DNA from: Cristatella mucedo
Lineage: Eukaryota > Bryozoa > Phylactolaemata > Cristatellidae
Assembly (NCBI GenBank): GCA_009760855.2
Contig: WPIO01000062.1
Location: 840,001-904,000 of the forward strand
DNA: 64,000 bases
Direction: 5' to 3'
The first letter of the stretch is position 1. Every line of letters begins with the position of its first letter. A program made the position numbers and the translations under genes. Of this stretch, positions 12,405 through 64,000 are shown piece after piece. The notes under the pieces are model-generated. The model did not search any database. It saw only the letters and a program-made list of their open reading frames with translations, and was not told the origin of the DNA.

Positions 12405-14476
12405 TCGGTTGGGTGACTATTGAACCTACGACTACTGACCCTGCAAAAATTTGCCTTTACCAACCGGCCTATACGACAATTGATCTATATATCATCTGTA
12501 TCATCTGATCTGCGACTATTGGACCTACGACAACTGGCCCATACTAACTGGCCTATACGAAAATTGATCTATATGTCAATTTCTAAGAATAATACACAGT
12601 TTTCAATTTACACAATTGATACAAACAATTAAGAATGAATTCATGACGTCTGAATTTTATAATTTATTTTTGAAAAAGGATTATTAGTAAAGCAGTTTTT
12701 TCTCTTAAAAGTGTCAAAAATGTTCATTATATTCTAGATAAAAATCGATCCTAATGTTACAGTAGTTTCTCAACTAACTATGCGAAAAATATGCAATGGC
12801 GCGAAGAAAAGTTAGAACATCTGTACGACCGTAACCTTCAAACAGCCCGTCGAACTTAATCGGCAAACTCGCGGTATCTCTTTGCTTGGACAACAAGAAT
12901 GCTAGTGATGCCTTGCAAGAACAAGGCAGTCTGCTTACTGTGGTCCATGAGAAACCCTTTCAGAAATGTCTACATCGTTGGATGATGGCACTGAAACAAT
13001 GCTTGGACCCCGTAATGCCACCTCTCTACTGCATTAGTTGTACGAGCTACACCATCTACTGACGCCCCATTCTGATTCCGAATCCCACAGAGAAGAGCGC
13101 ACTGCCGTAGTTATCACCTCGGCCTCAAAGACGTCTGTTTCGGATGTAGGTATGTTCGAAGTATGAGATCAGTTCATTCATACGCTCATGTGATGGCATA
13201 GAGTCGGACAGCAGCTCAAATGCTTCGATGACGACTGTCTCCGGTACATGTCCCAGTGCTAGTAGACATCGAACTGCATTGCGAATAGCATCATCAGTTT
13301 TATACTCCTCTTTCATTCCTAACTCGTTGACCTTTCTTACAACGCTCTGAGTGAAATGGAAGTAACAGCCCGTATTTGTAGCTGTCGAGTACAAGGCAGA
13401 GAAAGCATTAATAGCTGATGCTTCGAAATCGATGAGAATAATTTGAGGGTTTGCAGCAGGTATGAGACGCTTGAGTTCGGCGAGAAGGCGATCATATGTT
13501 TCGCGAGTCTTGTTTGGAACTAGGCAGTCCAGTCCAACAGGGATAAGTCCTGGGACAAATTGAAAATGAATGGTGTACAGTTGAAAGAAAATCAAGGGAA
13601 CTACTTGAAACGCACCGTCAGCTAGCCACACGTCTCTTCGAGAGCCAAGCAGTCAAGCAAGGTGCTATTTCCGAGGATAATCAGCCCCGATCCTGTCCTG
13701 GTCCTGAGTCAGACAGTACAAAATCAATGAACTTCTGAGGGATGTCAAATAACAGATCTGTGGGTATCGGTGGTGAAGTTGCGTCAGCCTCGGACAAGTC
13801 CTTCTTTCTCTGCCACTGCAGTGCTCGATTCAAGGTTGACTTCTTCGGTAAAGCCATTAGCACGTCATCCGATAAGTTCCTAGCCACAGAACCTTGCACT
13901 GCACTCGGAGTCGCAGAAACTTCCGACATCTTAGCCTTCATGTCACCAACAGCCTTTCTTGCCCGGGCTATTGCTATGTTTCCTTCGTGGCAGTGTTCTG
14001 GAGCGCGATTTCCAACTACTGTAGTGCCATTCGTTATAAGAAAAGCCTTGCAACTAAGCTGACGGTATTTGAAGCATCACCAATTTGTAGTGCCGCTTGC
14101 ATTTACGATTACTTTCCAGTATTCCAAGTTTCTATATATCGCAGTACCATTTCCACGCTCGGAAATTCCGTACTGTATCACTGACTCCATGATTTATAAA
14201 TATTTTTATGCTCAACAATTACTAGCCTCACAAATTATCAATTATATTTATTGATACAAGCTGATATCCAATCCTTATAATAGTCTATAACCTAGTTTGT
14301 ATATATATCCTAATTTGATCAAATAAAACTGACCTGCACCAGTTTTATTTATATTGCCTATTTCTGATCTTAGGGCCACGTGTCAAAGATCCGTTGTCAT
14401 ATAGATCAATTGTCGTATAGGCCGGTTGGTTCACGCCAATAATCGTAAGGCGAGTAGTCACAAGCTTAATTGTCGG
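12405..14476 (-). mobile_element. MULE DNA transposon inserted in an L2 copy
   Basis: The element lies between two parts of one antisense L2. Near-duplicate 12-mers flank it (12393-12404 and 14477-14488, 9 of 12 identical, shared core gcttgg), fitting the 9-11 base target duplications of MULEs. A perfect 31-base inverted repeat lies just inside the ends (12460-12490 against 14399-14429), and a weaker copy of the left repeat sits at 12541-12575. The minus strand encodes a broken FLYWCH/MULE transposase. Confidence 0.85.
12820..14130 (-). pseudogene. MULE transposase with FLYWCH zinc finger, broken
   Basis: Read on the minus strand, the order is: a FLYWCH-type finger (CFKYRQLSCKA then EHCHEG; C-x7-C...HxH) preceded by an in-frame TGA near 14085; a helical linker (MKAKMSEV...LPKKSTLNRALQWQR); the MULE catalytic domain with WLADGAFQVVP (first Asp), LIDFEASAINAF (second Asp) and CYFHFTQSVVRKV; then a frameshifted end with TTNAVERWHYGVQALF, the usual region of the catalytic Glu. 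The longest intact piece is 13125-13631 (168 residues). The protein would cut and paste the element between its inverted repeats. Stops and frameshifts make this copy inactive. Confidence 0.85.
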
Positions 14477-22130: not shown

Positions 22131-22204
22131 ATTTTTTTCGTCGAAAGCACCTCAGCGTTAGAGCCGACCTCTGCTACAACGAAACAGTGAGTTGGATTTA
22201 CGTT

Positions 22205-24555
22205 TTTTGCCAAACGACGTAACTTACAAAGCATTGACATAGACAAGTTTTTGAAATCTGTTTGTGATGCAGGCCTTCTTGATCTGCATTCAGACTCGAC
22301 CGGCAGCCTCGATACCCTCACTGATGCGATGAACATGACACTCAGGAGTGCTCTTGACAAGCATGCTCCCGTTCATTCTATCCGTGTTCAAAGTCGTCGA
22401 GATCCCTTTCAATTTACAAAAAAACTCCTTAAGATGCGCCGTGTTAAGCGCAGGCTGGAACGTCGTTTCAAGAAATCGGGGTCTGAGGCAGACCTAGTCA
22501 ATTTTAGAGACTACCTTCGAGTTTACACCCGAAAGCTTAAAAAAGCCAGGGCTTCTTTTTTCATTAGAAAACTAAATTCCTGCCAGTCGGACACTAAACA
22601 AATTTATAAGACAGTAAACCATTTACTGGCCAATGCTGTCAGGTTTGACTCCCCAGATATTAAGGGCTCAGCCGAAAAGTTTTCAGCCTTCTTTACTGAA
22701 AAAATTGTGCACATTCGTGCCTCCATTAAGCCCTCTCCGACCAAAGCAATTGCCGTTCTTCAACCTGTGACCTTTCTTAAAAGGTTCTCCGATGTTTCTG
22801 CCTGTGATGTGGCTGCCTTAATAAGGTCTAGCAAAAAGAGTTCGTCTCCTGAAGACCCTATACCTTCATCTCTGTGGTCTTCACTTGCAGACCAACTTAG
22901 CCCTGCCATAACCAAGATTTTTAATGCTTCTTTGGGAAAAGGGGTCGTCCCCAAGTCCTTCAAATCGGCAATCGTTAGACCTATTCTTAAAAAGCCTGGA
23001 TTAGACACAGAGGTCCTAGCAAACTATCGTCCAGTTTCCGTTCTTATCAAAAATTCTTGAAAAAATTGTTGCTAAGCAGCTAGTTGAACATATTGAAAAT
23101 AATGGAATGTCAGAAACATTTCAATCAGGTTTCAAGAGGCAGCACTCTACTGAAACTGCTCTCCTCCGTGTTAACAATGACATTCTAAGGGGCAACGACG
23201 ACGGGAATATCACTGCCCTAGCTCTGCTAGATCTGTCTGCTGCCTTCGACACTATTGATCACGAAGTTCTGCTTGAATGATTGAGAACAACGATTGGTCT
23301 GGCAGACGAAGCACTGGCGTTGTTTAAATCATACTTGTCTGATCGTGTTCAATCCGTGTCGTGTGGGGGTCAGGTCTCAGACATGAGAAGGGTCACCTGT
23401 GGAGTTCCTCAAGGGTCTGTACTTGGTCCCTTGCTGTTCTCCATTTATACGCAACCTCTGGGAAAAGTGATTAAGGCCCATGGAATAGGATATCACTTCT
23501 ATGCTGACGATACTCGGTTGTATTTGTCATTTAAACCGTCGGAATCTGCTGCAGCAACTGAGAAACTGAATGCTTGCCTTGCCGATATTCGATCCTGGAT
23601 GTCGGAAAACTTCCTGAAATTAAATGATGATAAAACCAAACTGGTGCTCATAGGACACCCTAAGCGTGTAGCTGGAATAAAAGGCTTTACTCTTCTAATA
23701 GGTGATGCTATTGTGCGACCTTCACCACGTGCTCGTAATCTAGGTGTCGTGTTCGACAGCTGCCTCAATTTCAAAAGCTTCATTCAGAAGACTGCCTCTA
23801 CAGCTAGCCATCACATCCGATCCCTATCCAAGATTAGAAGCTGTCTCCCACAATGGCTTGTAACAAATTTAACTAGCTCTTTAGTTCTGTCTCGGCTTGA
23901 TTATTGTAATTCCCTTTTGGCTGGGCTACCAAAGAAAGCTATTATGCCACTACAGCGGATTATGAATATGGCTGCAAGGCTAGTCTTCAAGTCCCAGCGG
24001 TTTGAGCACGTGTCACCTTTGCTGAAAGAGCTAGGATGGTTGCCTGTTGAGCAAAGGATACAGAGCAAAGTTCTTACACTGACCCACAAGGCCCGCCACG
24101 GCTTGGCTCCTTCGTACCTAGCTGAACTGCTGCATCAGTTTCAGCCTGCTCGCACCCTCAGGTCCTGTGTGGACAATAAATTAGCTGTCCCATTCCTCCG
24201 CTTAAAGACAGTTGGCGACAGAAGCTTTAGCTCTGCAGGTCCTAGACTGTGGAACTCGCTTCCACAATTCTTACGCAACGACATCTACTCTCCAACTGCC
24301 GACTATGGCACATCTTTTTCAGCGGTCCTGAACTGCTACTTCTATGCTACTCACTACCTCAACTGCTCTCCTAACTCTGATATGCTTCCCACTTTCTCTT
24401 TGTTGCGTGAGACGAAGTCTGTTGGCTACCGAATGCGTACCGAAAGCCGCTTAGGCTGTGAGTTCGCTATAGAAAACTCTCATGCGTAACACCCACATGG
24501 TCTTTATGACTTTGTGGAGTTACTGACGGAGATACATTACATTACATTTTAATTA
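22205..24555 (+). mobile_element. L2-clade LINE, family A, 5' truncated
   Basis: The best-preserved LINE here. It starts inside the endonuclease-to-RT linker, covers the whole RT and C-terminal domain, then a 3' UTR (cacccacatggtctttatga, ctttgtggagttactgacgg) and a short (ACATT)n tail near 24535-24550. Partial copies of the same family lie at 10.4, 15.9, 29.3, 53.9 and 58.8 kb. Confidence 0.93.
22251..24489 (+). pseudogene. LINE ORF2 (reverse transcriptase), one frameshift and one stop
   Basis: 22251-23060 encodes the linker (basic helix KMRRVKRRLERRFKK) and the RT start (PIPSSLWSSL, FKSAIVRPILKKPGLD, NYRPVS). A frameshift near 23040 moves reading to FLSKILEKIVAKQLVEHI, QSGFKRQHSTETALL and LDLSAAFDTIDHEVLLE; TGA at 23278 follows. 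23281-24489 continues with CGVPQGSVLGPLLFSIYTQP, the catalytic YADD (about 23501-23512), WMSENFLKLNDDKTKLVLIG, and the long C-terminal domain (LSRLDYCNSLLAGLP, HKARHGLAPSYLAELL, PRLWNSLPQFLRND). The enzyme would reverse-transcribe its own RNA at a nicked target. Two lesions only suggest a fairly young copy. Confidence 0.92.
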
Positions 24556-29327: not shown

Positions 29328-30492
29328 CCCTGCGGTAGTGGAGTTCCTCACCTTCCGGAGTCCCGGAAGAGTCCGTCCTCGGTCCCTTGCTGCTCTCCAT
29401 TTTTACACACCTGTGGCAAAATTGGTTATTGGCCCATGGACGAGGATGTCACTGTTATGCTGACGATACGCAGCTGTGTTTGTCATTTGAACCGTCAACA
29501 TCTGCTGCAGCAACTGATAAACTGAATGCTTGCCTTGCCAACATTCGATCCTGGATGTCGGCAACTTTCGTTAAACTAAACGACGATAAAACAGAACTGC
29601 TGCTCATAAGACACCCTAAGCGTGTGGCTGAACTTGTAGGCTTTGCTCTTCTAATAGTTGATGCTTTTGTGCGACCATCACCATCTGCTCGGAATTTAGG
29701 TGTCGTCTTCGACAGCTACCTAAATTTCAAAGCTTCGTTAAGAAGATTGCTTCCGAAGCCAGCTATCACGTCTGATCTCTATTCAAGATTATGAACTGTC
29801 TTTCGCGGTGGCTTGCAAACAACTCAACTAGCTCCTTAGGTCTGTCTCGGCTAGATTATAGTTCCCTTTTGGCTGGGCTACCGAAAAGAAAGCAACTAGG
29901 CCACTGCAGCTGGCTATGAATATGGCTGCAAGACTAGTCTGCGAATCCCGGAGGTTTGACCATGTGTCTCACTTTCTAGACGAGCTAGGATGGCTGCCGG
30001 TTGATCAGCGGATACGGAGTAAACGTTTTTACGCTGACCCACAAGGCCCGCCCTGGCTCGGCTCCTTCACACCTGGCTGAGCTGCTCACCAGTTTTAGCC
30101 TCCTCGTGCCCTCAGGTCCAGTATGGACAATAAATTAGCTGCTCCATTCCTTCGGTTAAAAGACTGTTGGCGACAGAAGCTTTAGCTCTGCGGCTCCTAG
30201 ACTGTGGAACTCGCTCCCACGATTCTTACGCAACGACAACTACTCTCCTGGGTGCTGACTATGGCTCATCTTTTTCAGCGGTCCTGAGCTGCTACTGCCA
30301 TGCTACTCACTACCTCAACTGCTCCCTTGACTCTGCCATGTTTCTCACTTTCTCTTTGCTGCGTGAGACGAAGTCTGTTGGCTACCGAATGCGTACCGAA
30401 AGCCGCTCAGGCTGTGAGTGCGCTATGTAAAACTCTCCAGCGTAACACCTACGTGGTCTTTGTGGAGTTGCAGACGGAGAAACGGAGTATAG
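29328..30492 (+). mobile_element. L2 family A, 5' truncated, degenerate
   Basis: Starts in the RT palm block (equivalent to CGVPQGSVLGPLL) and continues with HCYADDTQLCLSFEPS, WMSATFVKLNDDKTELLLI, NLGVVFDSYLNFK and RETKSVGYRMRTESRSGCE. The 3' tail ends at gagttgcagacggagaa without the (ACATT)n run. The C-terminal half has many frameshifts. Confidence 0.9.
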
Positions 30493-32205: not shown

Positions 32206-32382
32206 ATGCCCTTCGACAAGTCGTGCACTCGCGAATTCGTTCTGCTGTCACTGGCGGTCGTCGCGACGACGACGTCGCCGGCCGGCCGCTGCAGACACGA
32301 GCCGTCGGCGAACGTGCGCACGTACCTTCGCGAAGAGCTGCGACTGGCGGCAGGCATGGCGTTCGCCATCGCGGACGTCATA
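32206..32382 (+). CDS. Cytokine-like gene exon 1: signal peptide and first part of helix A
   Basis: 59 codons ending exactly at ATA|gtaagt (phase 0). It encodes the leader, a probable cleavage zone near residues 24-28 (SPAGR), Cys29, and the first two thirds of helix A (about residues 36-59). It lies in a CpG-rich stretch, as expected of a 5' exon near a promoter. Confidence 0.68.
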
Positions 32383-35248
32383 GTAAGTCATAATAAGCCG
32401 CCGCCTCGAACCGGCGCCGAGCTCGCTCGCTCGCTTCCGTCGACCGCGAGCGGGCGGCGGCGGCACCACTTCCTTCTCGAGCTCGGCGCGGGATCGCGCC
32501 GCCCGACCGCGGGATCGCGCCTCACGCCTCGCCGCATGCTCGCTCGCTTAGCCGCACGTTGTCGCCACGCACGCACGCACACGCCGCCGCCGCCGCTCGA
32601 ACGCGCAGTACGTCCCGGCGTGTGCCTTAACGTAGGTAACCTACGGCCCGCGTAGGGCGTGCCGCCGAACGCTCGCAATCCTCGCGGTTGCTAAAAGTCG
32701 CAGAGTCGCAGCGACGGAGCTCCGCAAGTTCGGGAAGCGGGAGCCGTTGCCATTTCTCCATCTCTCCGCTCTGCTCCGTCCCGCTTCTCGCCGTGCGGAC
32801 TGATCAGCGGCTCCGAATGACCAGCCGCTCTCCTCCGAAAAGCAAGCCGGCCAGCGCTCCCTCCTTACCTCCCCCCCCCCGGCGCCGGCGGCATCCCGCT
32901 TCCGTCTTAACGTCTGGCGCCTCCACGCGCGCCACGAGTCGAGAGCGAGCCGAGCGCCGAGAGTGAGTCGCGCCAGCTGGCTCCGTCGCCGTCTCGGCCG
33001 CTCGGCGGCGGTAGGATCGAGGCGGGAGAAGACCGCTAGGCCGCTGCTACCGAAGTAGGCCGTCTGCGGTAATTGCCACAGCTCAAGATGGACTCGCTGA
33101 GAGAAAAGAGTCTCGCACGGCTATCTCCCGCTTCGATTGAAACGACGCGCGCCGAGAAGCTGGGCGGGCTTTGAAGTGCTAGCGCTGTCAAGCATCAAAT
33201 CGTAGGGTGAGCGAAGTGAACGGCCCGCAGTTCGAACAGCAAATGGACAGTGCCTGGAGCGAATGATATGGGCGCTTCGTTATTATACTGGGCAGGCCAT
33301 TACTTAACCTCCGGCCATTTGCGACGAGCACTTTGCCGGTCAGCGCCAAGCACGGAGCGGCGACGTCTGCTTGTTGCCACGGGCGCTGGTGGAATCAAAA
33401 AGACTCCTGCCGTAAAACTGCTAGAATCATGAGGACTGTGTGGCCGTTGAGTTGGACAGCATTCTACAGAGCCCGCCCACCCGCCCCCTACCAAAAAGTC
33501 TTGGCTGCTTTCGGTGAGCAATAAGTAGCTAACTGTTACTACTTATATCAATCTGTGGCAATATTAAAAGAAAAGCAAGGCGCATCACAGAATTCGGAGA
33601 GTCGGCGAAGTAAGCAGCCATGACGTACAAGCGTAGAATTCTGAGTCGGCGAGCGGTTCGTTAGCTGCAGTCGGCTCGACGCTGCTTAACCTGCGACGCT
33701 CCTTAGCCCGTTCGTCCGCAAGTAACAACAGGAAACCTTGTCAGCTTCGATGACTCGCAAACCATTCTCATTCAGAGCTCACCTCTCTCCTCACGAGCCC
33801 TACCTCGATGCCATAGGCTTGAGCAGTGTAGCTAATAATAATCATAGGTTGTTGTACAGCGCAGTAGAAAAAAGTAAACCGAGATCTGGGTGCTTTATAA
33901 TTCACTGTAAGCGGGGGGGCCCCCGAAGCCAGGAGTGGAGCTGGGGGGGTGGGGTAACGGTTTTGGGGCGTCCCCCAGCGCCAGGAGCAAGCGAAAACTG
34001 GCCTAAATGATGCCAAGCACCCAGGGGCCAGCCGCCCCACTGGTTGCCAGACTCGGCTTTCACCTACCAGACCAGGGGGTGGCAGGTGCAACTCCGGCCA
34101 CCGATGGCTTCGCCTCTTACTGTAAGGGAATCGGTAGCCGGAGGTTAATGACATTAATGGCACCAACGCTACGACGCTGAGGCGGCAGGCCATCACCGTA
34201 CGCATGGCCTGACCGATGAAGTTCAAGGCTGAACTTCGATTAGCTAATGAGCTTGAACTTGTGATCTTTGACGGGTCGAGCTGATGCGATAGAGGCCAGC
34301 CGCCAATGCTCCACTTAGCCGGCCTAGCCCCGCCCTCTGCTCACCAGCCCGATCGCTGCATTACGATTATTCTGGTGGATGAGTAAAAATATAAGAAATG
34401 CTAGCAGATCTAGACAAGTTTGGCAGTAGAGAAAAACTAGTGCATGAATGTATGAGAAAAGAAGCATTCGAAAATGACACGCCGAGGCATATAACGGGGC
34501 GGGGGCGAACTTCGTACAGCCAATTCTTGAGCAGCACAGATAACTCGGCGGCTCGCCGAGTTTCTCTGGCAGCTTGCACACGACCCACTTTAGATTAGTT
34601 CATTGAAGCCTCTTCGAAGCTCGTAGGGCATACGGTCACTCTTGCACATTTTCCGCATACGACACTTTTATGTTCTCTTTCTTCTGGAAAATCGGGTGTC
34701 AATGCGCTGCAGCTTGCTGGCGTCGTATTTTTAGAGTCGCGAGTGGCTACGAGAGGCAAGCGGCTTCACCGGAAGATCCATGTTCCTAATACCCGAACCT
34801 TCAACGACTGCAGCCCTGGTAAGTAGCCAGGAGCCGAGCGGAGCCCGGTCGTGTCAAGGTCGTGCGTGCGTGCGTGCCGGCCAGCGAGCCAGCGTGGGGC
34901 TCTCTGTCGGAGCGGAGCGACTTTTCGCTACAGGATCTCTCTGCTCATCACGACGTGCAATCGCTACTACGAAACGTGAGCTCAGTGGCAGCGACCGTCG
35001 ATCACTACGCGCGGCACGTGCAGGGCCATCACGGCTGCAGACTAAATAGTACGGACTTACGAAAGCAGACGGCCGACCTCCTGAAGGCGGTCGACAATAT
35101 TGTCGTCTACCTTCATGTCCTCGCCGGCGCGTCGTCGCTGCCGTGTCCGACGAATGCCGCCGTTCAGCAGCAGCTGGTAGAGTGCAAGGTGGGAAGTTAC
35201 TGGCTCTTCAAAGGCATCCATCGACTGCTCTCGGCGAGGCTTTTGTAG
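32206..35248 (+). CDS. Predicted secreted four-helix cytokine (LIF/CNTF/IL-6-like), three exons
   Basis: Exons 32206-32382, 34735-34818 and 34934-35248 join in phase 0 at both introns to give 191 residues and a TAG stop. Seen: a hydrophobic leader at about residues 11-23; cysteines in the predicted mature part at 29, 122, 158 and 171; N-glycosylation sequons at N101 and N125; four stretches of amphipathic-helix character at about 36-68, 88-118, 127-153 and 160-190. Long-chain class I cytokines have this size, this up-up-down-down helix order and phase-0 introns. The fourth helix, with Cys171 followed by an aromatic/basic segment (YWLFK), resembles helix D of LIF, oncostatin M and CNTF. The FxxK receptor motif of that family reads VQQQ here. 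Inferred role: extracellular ligand for a gp130/Domeless-type receptor acting through JAK/STAT. The start has a usable context (gagaccATGc) and a TATA-like box lies about 75 bases upstream. Introns are 2352 and 115 bases. The gene structure is well supported; the family call is inference, and EPO/G-CSF-like or a non-cytokine helical protein remain possible. Confidence 0.68.
32383..34734 (+). other. Intron 1 of the cytokine-like gene, unassigned content
   Basis: GC-rich at the start (32400-33200, with a poly-C run near 32870), then mixed. At 33900-34230 there is a block with G and C homopolymers and an open minus-strand frame (33768-34226) of unknown nature. No other exon recognised. Confidence 0.45.
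34735..34818 (+). CDS. Cytokine-like gene exon 2: end of helix A and AB loop
   Basis: 28 codons between an acceptor (cgtatttttag) and the donor CTG|gtaagt, phase 0 on both sides. Residues 60-68 continue helix A (SREWLREAS). Residues 69-87 are proline- and glycine-containing and fit the long AB crossover loop of long-chain cytokines. A second acceptor at 34712 would open another frame with the wrong exit phase for exon 3, so it was not used. Confidence 0.6.
34934..35248 (+). CDS. Cytokine-like gene exon 3: helices B, C and D, stop
   Basis: Begins after tttcgctacag in phase 0 and ends at TAG (35246-35248). It encodes residues 88-191, with both N-glycosylation sequons (NVS at 101, NST at 125) and cysteines 122, 158 and 171. 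Having helices B to D in one terminal exon matches the known layout of LIF, CT-1 and CLCF1. Codon use is GC-rich like exon 1. Confidence 0.68.
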   Translation, partial: DLSAHHDVQSLLRNVSSVAATVDHYARHVQGHHGCRLNSTDLRKQTADLLKAVDNIVVYLHVLAGASSLPCPTNAAVQQQLVECKVGSYWLFKGIHRLLSARLL

Positions 35249-38127: not shown

Positions 38128-39130
38128 TCAATAATAATAATAATAATGTACTTGATAAAGCGCCCTCAGAGAACTTAATCTCTTTCTAGGCACTTTACAT
38201 TTGCTGCAAAGGGAAATGCAATTAAATGGTAAGTAAAATCATGCTTGAAAAGCAAACAAAATGAATAACATGGTTAGTGGCAGCATGCACAGTGTCAACA
38301 CGCATAAGCACGTGATGGACGAATCATAGGGACCCACTAAATGCTGTCCTAAATAGGTGTGTTTTTAAGTTCCTTTTAAATGTGGTCAGGTCAGGGGATG
38401 TTCTGACGCAGGTCGGGAGGGAAGTCCAGGCTTTGGGAGCATACGAACTAAATGCACGGTCTCCAAAGGATTTGAGGTTTGTACGACGTATTTCTAGACT
38501 GCTGGATTCCGAAAAGCGAGTGGTACGATGCTTGGCCTGATGGGGTAGTATATCTAAGAGATAGGCTGGAGCCATAGAATGAAGGGACCTAAAAGTGAAC
38601 GACAAAACCTTGAAGTCAATCCGTTGCTTGACTGGTAGCCAGTGCAGGTCGGCGAGAAGTGGAGTAATGTGGCAACTGCGACGCTCACGACAGACAAGCC
38701 TAGCTGCCGAGTTTTGCACCAGCTGCAATCGCCTGATCGCACATGCTGGTAGGCCAGTAAGCAGTGAGTTACAGAAGTCGAGACGAGATGTCACGAATGC
38801 ATGGACCAACTTAGACGTGGTATCCTTATCTAAACAAGCCCGAATTTTAGCAATATTGTGAAGCTGAAAATAGGCAGATTTGACTGTGGAGCTGATATCG
38901 TTGTCTAACGAGAGGTCGCTTTGGAATATGACACCTAGATTTTGAGCTGATTCGACAGGAGATATTCTGGCAGAGCCAATTTTGAGAGTTAGCCTTTCCA
39001 ATTTGTGAATCACACTGGGTTTGCCCATAACTAGTAAGTTAATTTTGTCATCGTTTAGTTTTAGAAAATTTGCTGCCATCCATGTGCGGATGTCATCAAT
39101 GCATGCAGCAAGTGAGTTGGAGGCGGCGAG
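38128..39130 (-). mobile_element. L2 family B, antisense, intact C-terminal domain
   Basis: (AAT)n and the antisense tail are followed by a minus-strand frame (38324-39133, 269 residues) without lesions: WMAANFLKLNDDKINLLVMG, NLGVIFQSDLSLDNDISS, LVHAFVTSRLDFCNSLLTG, RRSCHITPLLADLHWLPVKQ and NLKSFGDRAFSSYAPKAWTS. This is the C-terminal part of LINE ORF2 only; the RT core is missing because of 5' truncation. It is almost identical to the copy at 51.0-51.7 kb. Confidence 0.95.
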
Positions 39131-47380: not shown

Positions 47381-63768
<16,388 letters not shown>

Positions 63769-64000
63769 GTGAGTCACCATCTGCGCGTGTCACCTTCAAG
63801 CTGCCTCTCCCATCCTCTGCATGCTGAAGGCTTTCGTCCGTTGTCTGTGGCAAGCCAGTACTTAATGCAGCAATAACGTACGAGTTTCCCTTCCGGTCAC
63901 ACACGACCCCACAGCAGCGGCTGCAGCAAAGGGGCCGTGAGGCTCTGCTCAGCTCGCTGCCATCGAACACAGCCGAACACCAGCGAGTAGCAGACACGCC
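63769..64000 (+). other. Start of carrier intron 7
   Basis: Begins gtgagtcacc. No further carrier exon is visible before the window ends. Confidence 0.6.

Follow-up and report, generated by a model that had tools for sequence, protein, structure and literature searches.

A tandem pair of genes for predicted secreted helical proteins of cytokine-like build

The candidate gene on the + strand of the window (the whole stretch of 64,000 nucleotides that was analysed, bases 840001-904000 of contig C581) is, judged from sequence, a real-looking gene and one of a tandem pair, and the two products are best read as a lineage-specific pair of secreted helical proteins with a cytokine-like build. The gene was modelled as three exons joined at phase-0 junctions into one 191-residue frame with a TAG stop, and its sister lies ~55 kb upstream.

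Window 32206..32382, + strand: candidate exon 1, 177 nt; putative leader, Cys29 and predicted helix A; phase-0 end at donor GTAAGT
Window 34735..34818, + strand: candidate exon 2, 84 nt, 28 residues; phase 0 at either end; would encode the A-B loop; the least secure element of the model
Window 34934..35248, + strand: candidate exon 3, 315 nt including TAG; predicted helices B, C and D; Cys122, Cys158 and Cys171; sequons N101 and N125
C581:815891-816061, 816854-816931, 817076-817489, same strand as the candidate: sister gene, three exons, 220 aa

Gene model and sister gene

On re-reading of the sequence, the coordinates, phase-0 junctions, 191-residue length, cysteines (Cys7 in the leader, and Cys29, 122, 158 and 171 in the mature protein) and sequons (N101, N125) given in the earlier note were all reproduced, as were its clean splice sites: both introns are GT-AG, with donors ATA/GTAAGT (exon 1) and CTG/GTAAGT (exon 2) and acceptors ...TTTTTAG/A and ...GCTACAG/G, and GTAAGT occurs twice in the interval separating exons 1 and 3, both times as a donor used in the model. 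The putative signal peptide has a core, FVLLSLAVVA from residue 11, that is the most hydrophobic 10-residue stretch in residues 1-35.

Since the window holds 50 open reading frames of at least 100 aa (program-made list), an open frame alone is little evidence for a gene; this one rests on more because of the homologous sister, which is its strongest support. Searching the genome (572 Mb, 688 contigs) with the candidate gave one clear non-self match, at 38% identity and E 9.1e-4, which lies on the contig and strand of the candidate itself, and the reverse search with the sister protein returned candidate exon 3 at E 0.008. By tblastn within a 194-kb stretch, with composition correction off, sister exon 3 was found at E 2e-7 and sister exon 1 at E 0.079 only. 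The phase-0 borders of sister exons 1 and 3 are identical to those of the candidate, with the donor of exon 1 at the same place, and no shuffle in 1000 was as good as either the exon 1 pair or the exon 3 pair. The whole mature proteins aligned with a score of 131 vs 31.4 +/- 5.1 for shuffled sequence (0/500 as good), and in both leaders a hydrophobic core is followed by a cysteine. Exons 1 and 3 are thus taken as established, by homology and common borders, and exon 2 of either gene is defined by its splice sites only.

Three-base periodicity was confined to the exons, reaching 16.6 bits over the 59 codons of exon 1 (vs 10.8 bits when the full open frame of 169 codons is taken), 18.1 bits in exon 3, and only 4.9 bits in exon 2. 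Among 115 stop-to-stop frames of at least 90 codons, the exon 3 frame (17.3 bits) ranked fifth, one of the four frames above it being the antisense of the same exon. A chance open frame or pseudogene, for which the abundance of long open frames in the window would speak, is very improbable: a homologous sister with the same exon borders already makes it unlikely, and the periodicity inside the exons and the lack of a stop codon in any of them add to this.

Exon 2 is the weak point of the model. Its similarity to the exon 2 proposed for the sister was matched or beaten in 760/1000 shuffles, and among 36 possible exon pairs the proposed one ranked 27th by similarity; by our criteria, nine possible phase-0 internal exons exist in candidate intron 1 and four in that of the sister, and the frame stays open, at 163 aa, when exon 2 is skipped. 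That the gene is real and the model partly wrong, with exon 2 unused or another internal exon used in its place, is on balance unlikely but carries appreciable weight, and it would be compatible with a cytokine as with another kind of protein. Against it, both splice sites of exon 2 are clean, its donor is one of only two GTAAGT in the interval, and variation is expected in a loop between helices A and B.

A diverged tandem copy fits fast evolution. By sequence similarity the family appears to have no clear member in the genome beyond these two; further matches, at E 0.058 to 3, were weaker and were left unassigned or put down to chance. Among these are L032 (E 0.058; no tblastn match at E 1), L033 (E 0.076), L025 (E 0.365) and L034 (E 3.05). 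L033 (reverse strand, ~1480-1740) resembles the candidate leader, helix A and loop, scoring 95 vs 30.3 +/- 4.8 (0/500 shuffles as good) in a test that is biased, the piece itself having been picked by the whole-genome search; it is intronless, has a stop upstream, lacks the helix B-D part, and gave no match to the sister gene (69/500 shuffles as good). A relative of exon 3 sought in viral contigs came down to a single 15-residue match (L001), which was judged chance, and a reverse transcriptase query against the same contigs found no relatives. The promoters of the two genes have in common a GATA-type site, at -112 and -104; a TATA box was seen in that of the sister only, and our patterns for STAT- or NF-kB-type sites matched nowhere within 800 bp.

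Other features were noted around the gene. Window 52459-56378 (+) holds exons of a mitochondrial carrier gene, by eye of SLC25A14/30 type, with Mito_carr over the Pfam cut-off in three of the four pieces scanned and no match in piece 63691-63873; a MULE transposase domain fragment lies at 13128-13652 (-) (PF10551, E 3.5e-7), and repeated non-LTR retroelement fragments, at most 96% alike, at 22191-24486, 29357-30461, 38271-39040 and 50998-51770, with a reverse transcriptase domain at 23281-24486. Coiled-coil open frames further along the contig (L014-L018, ~945-963 kb, -) are, by eye, presumably exons of a CCDC39-like cilia gene. Rfam and tRNA scans of the window returned nothing. GC content of the sequence analysed is ~45%, with CpG observed/expected of 0.90.

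Predicted fold, cysteines and kinship with the LIF group

Exon 3 is predicted to be helical at low confidence. AlphaFold2 run on candidate exon 3 alone placed helices at exon residues 3-31, 39-68 and 75-102 (mean pLDDT 53); with sister exon 3 added, mean pLDDT was 57 and helices B and C had block means of 60-74, and helix D was not formed in this run, whose two-sequence input alignment opens a gap within helix D. Amphipathicity at 100 degrees is weak in candidate helix D (0.15) and sister helix B (0.20). The candidate C-D loop is short (~11 residues), which is tight for a long overhand connection and argues against an up-up-down-down bundle; the sister loop at this place is longer and Ala/Pro-rich.

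In both mature proteins a cysteine precedes helix A and another falls in the stretch joining helices C and D. In an excerpt of PMC10022904, LIF (C34-C156, C40-C153) and OSM (C31-C152) have disulfides that tie the N-terminal extension before helix A to helix C, and CLCF1 is without such an N-terminal tether. Cys29 and Cys158 of the candidate are placed to suit a tether of this kind, and the mature cysteines of the sister are Cys27 and Cys179. The idea requires that Cys179 match Cys158, as it does in the hand alignment only (17 and 16 residues, respectively, before the YW pair); in MAFFT and global alignments Cys179 pairs with Cys171, and with that match the tether idea fails.

Searches of Pfam, NCBIfam and PDB sequences with both proteins, and of PDB with a two-row profile of the pair, found no cytokine. 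A hit to PF20393 (putative carbonic anhydrase, E 0.011) fell below the cut-off of that profile and was judged chance, as were PDB matches at E 0.045 to 1. Against human LIF, CLCF1, CNTF, CTF1 and OSM, the candidate gave shuffle z scores of 0.67 to 3.4, OSM being the best (6/500 as good); the OSM signal was not repeated by the sister (z 0.50), the best partner of which was CTF1 (z 3.0, 7/500 as good), in an Ala/Pro-rich stretch. In local hhalign comparisons, the hand-aligned pair matched groups of the five at P 0.077 to 0.36, vs 0.057 to 0.46 for reversed controls. Five of seven vertebrate pairings run as positive controls reached P < 0.01, among them LIF to CLCF1/CTF1/CNTF (P 1.8e-5) and CNTF to CLCF1/CTF1 (P 1.8e-6), so the test has some power, and its outcome is negative; OSM vs CLCF1/CTF1/CNTF (0.024) and CNTF vs LIF/OSM (P 0.28) were missed, and since the latter is a true pairing, a miss is not disproof. 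The PRF profile (PF06875) had no match in the genome at E 10 and was silent in the control genomes too.

What the candidate has in common with LIF and OSM is that it would be a small, secreted-looking helical protein with a leader, with cysteines before helix A and after helix C, that ends soon after helix D; it differs in having no significant sequence or profile similarity, no FxxK, and a long loop encoded by a separate exon. The likeness to CLCF1, CTF1 and CNTF, seen by eye, lies in the helix-A pattern YL..(Q/E)LR..AG, where YLREELRLAAG of the candidate aligns with YLEHQLRSLAG of CLCF1, and in an aromatic pair in helix D (FW / YW), but hhalign put CLCF1 at P 0.14 only and the group no better than reversed controls. 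Unpaired (Upd1-3, the insect Domeless ligands) can be likened by role alone, which would be the same if the candidate is an invertebrate JAK/STAT ligand; Upd proteins are larger.

The FxxK site (site 3), common to LIF, OSM, CNTF and CLCF1 in the same excerpt of PMC10022904, is absent from the start of helix D in both proteins, the candidate having VQQQ at residues 164-167, just as had been described, and the sister no FxxK before YWFF. The proposed tie to LIF/OSM/CNTF was not supported by the Pfam, PDB and profile tests, nor was the OSM signal repeated in the sister. The wider proposal of a secreted four-helix cytokine stood in part: the gene is real-looking, the product secreted-looking and helix-rich with a cytokine-like build, and the specific tie to LIF/OSM/CNTF is the part that found no support.

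Placement of the genome and a possible JAK-STAT setting

The earlier note had made its idea of a hard-to-detect JAK/STAT ligand conditional on the genome being that of an invertebrate or a jawless vertebrate. On the mitochondrial contig (C688; 21,008 bases, with a ~2.1 kb tandem repeat seen as repeated open frames, L029-L031), readthrough of COX1 (AGR = Ser, ATA = Met, AAA = Lys, TGA = Trp) gave code 5, which rules out the vertebrate code, so the jawless-vertebrate option falls and the invertebrate one is kept. In open frames read by eye, nad1-nad6-cob-nad4L-nad4-nad5 run on one strand, which we take to be a lophotrochozoan-type order; together with code 5, this places the animal among the lophotrochozoans. 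Mollusc-type haemocyanin (PF14830) had no match in the genome, with a profile that is silent in control genomes too.

STAT_bind was over its cut-off at two places in the genome (STAT exons). The receptor and JAK profiles PF09240 and PF17887 had no match here and were also silent in all control genomes, so absence is not implied. According to a portion of PMC13203501 (2026), IL6R, JAK and STAT occur together in Mollusca, where a canonical IL6 ligand is lacking; IL-6 family ligands are there placed in vertebrates only, insects having Upd and shrimp a C-type lectin ligand, and the existence of further ligands is expressly not excluded. A literature search, with subscription journals mostly uncovered, returned no named lophotrochozoan or molluscan helical ligand, nor a ligand of the invertebrate gp130/Domeless-JAK-STAT module outside arthropods.

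Against this background, the pair is plausibly a ligand for an invertebrate gp130/Domeless-JAK-STAT module. The leader would be cut off and the protein secreted; exon 1 would supply helix A, exon 2 a long loop, and exon 3 helices B, C and D; a disulfide kept in both copies would probably link the cysteine immediately ahead of helix A to one immediately past helix C, so that the N-terminal extension is fastened where that helix ends; and the ligand would act through a cell-surface receptor feeding the STAT of this genome.

Weighing of the readings

The sequence shows the gene model without exon 2, the sister gene, the hydrophobic leader and the STAT exons of the genome; secretion, disulfide, bundle fold, receptor and signalling are inferred. 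That the pair would be a helical-cytokine-like secreted ligand is a serious but tentative proposition, somewhat short of an even chance. Close to even stands the alternative that the gene, though real, encodes a secreted helical protein of some other lineage-specific sort, such as an effector or carrier, or a reproductive or matrix protein, with no link to a cytokine receptor: neither protein has detectable kinship to named families in Pfam, NCBIfam or PDB, the fold was predicted at mean pLDDT of 53 and 57 only, and two-gene lineage-specific families are common, whereas the size of the protein, its leader, the helix-loop-helix layout, introns in phase 0 and a possible disulfide from the N-terminus to helix C may jointly suit a cytokine better than they do most other secreted helical proteins.

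The bolder form of the cytokine reading, that these would be the first helical cytokine genes in a lophotrochozoan, a tandem pair of four-helix ligands whose N-terminus is tied to helix C as in LIF and OSM and which serve the receptor-JAK-STAT module that Mollusca are reported to have with no ligand known for it, is doubtful. Contained within it, with no share of its own, is the improbable case that these are genuine LIF/OSM/CNTF/CLCF1 family members of an invertebrate, a reading which could draw on the helix-A alignment to CLCF1 (though at P 0.14), on the OSM score of the candidate (z 3.4, 6/500 shuffles) and on a possible LIF/OSM-like tether (excerpt of PMC10022904), and is opposed by profile tests no better than reversed controls, by an OSM signal missing from the sister and by VQQQ in place of FxxK. 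The candidate introns fall after helix A and before helix B, which also tells against family membership, being unlike the layout of LIF.

The preferred reading, a lineage-specific pair of secreted helical proteins with a cytokine-like build, bears on the missing-ligand gap: with two candidate ligand genes whose exon borders are given exactly, this gap can be probed through expression, predicted structures and binding to receptors. Should the pair prove to be something other than a ligand, it would remain a protein family to which the searches made here gave no name.
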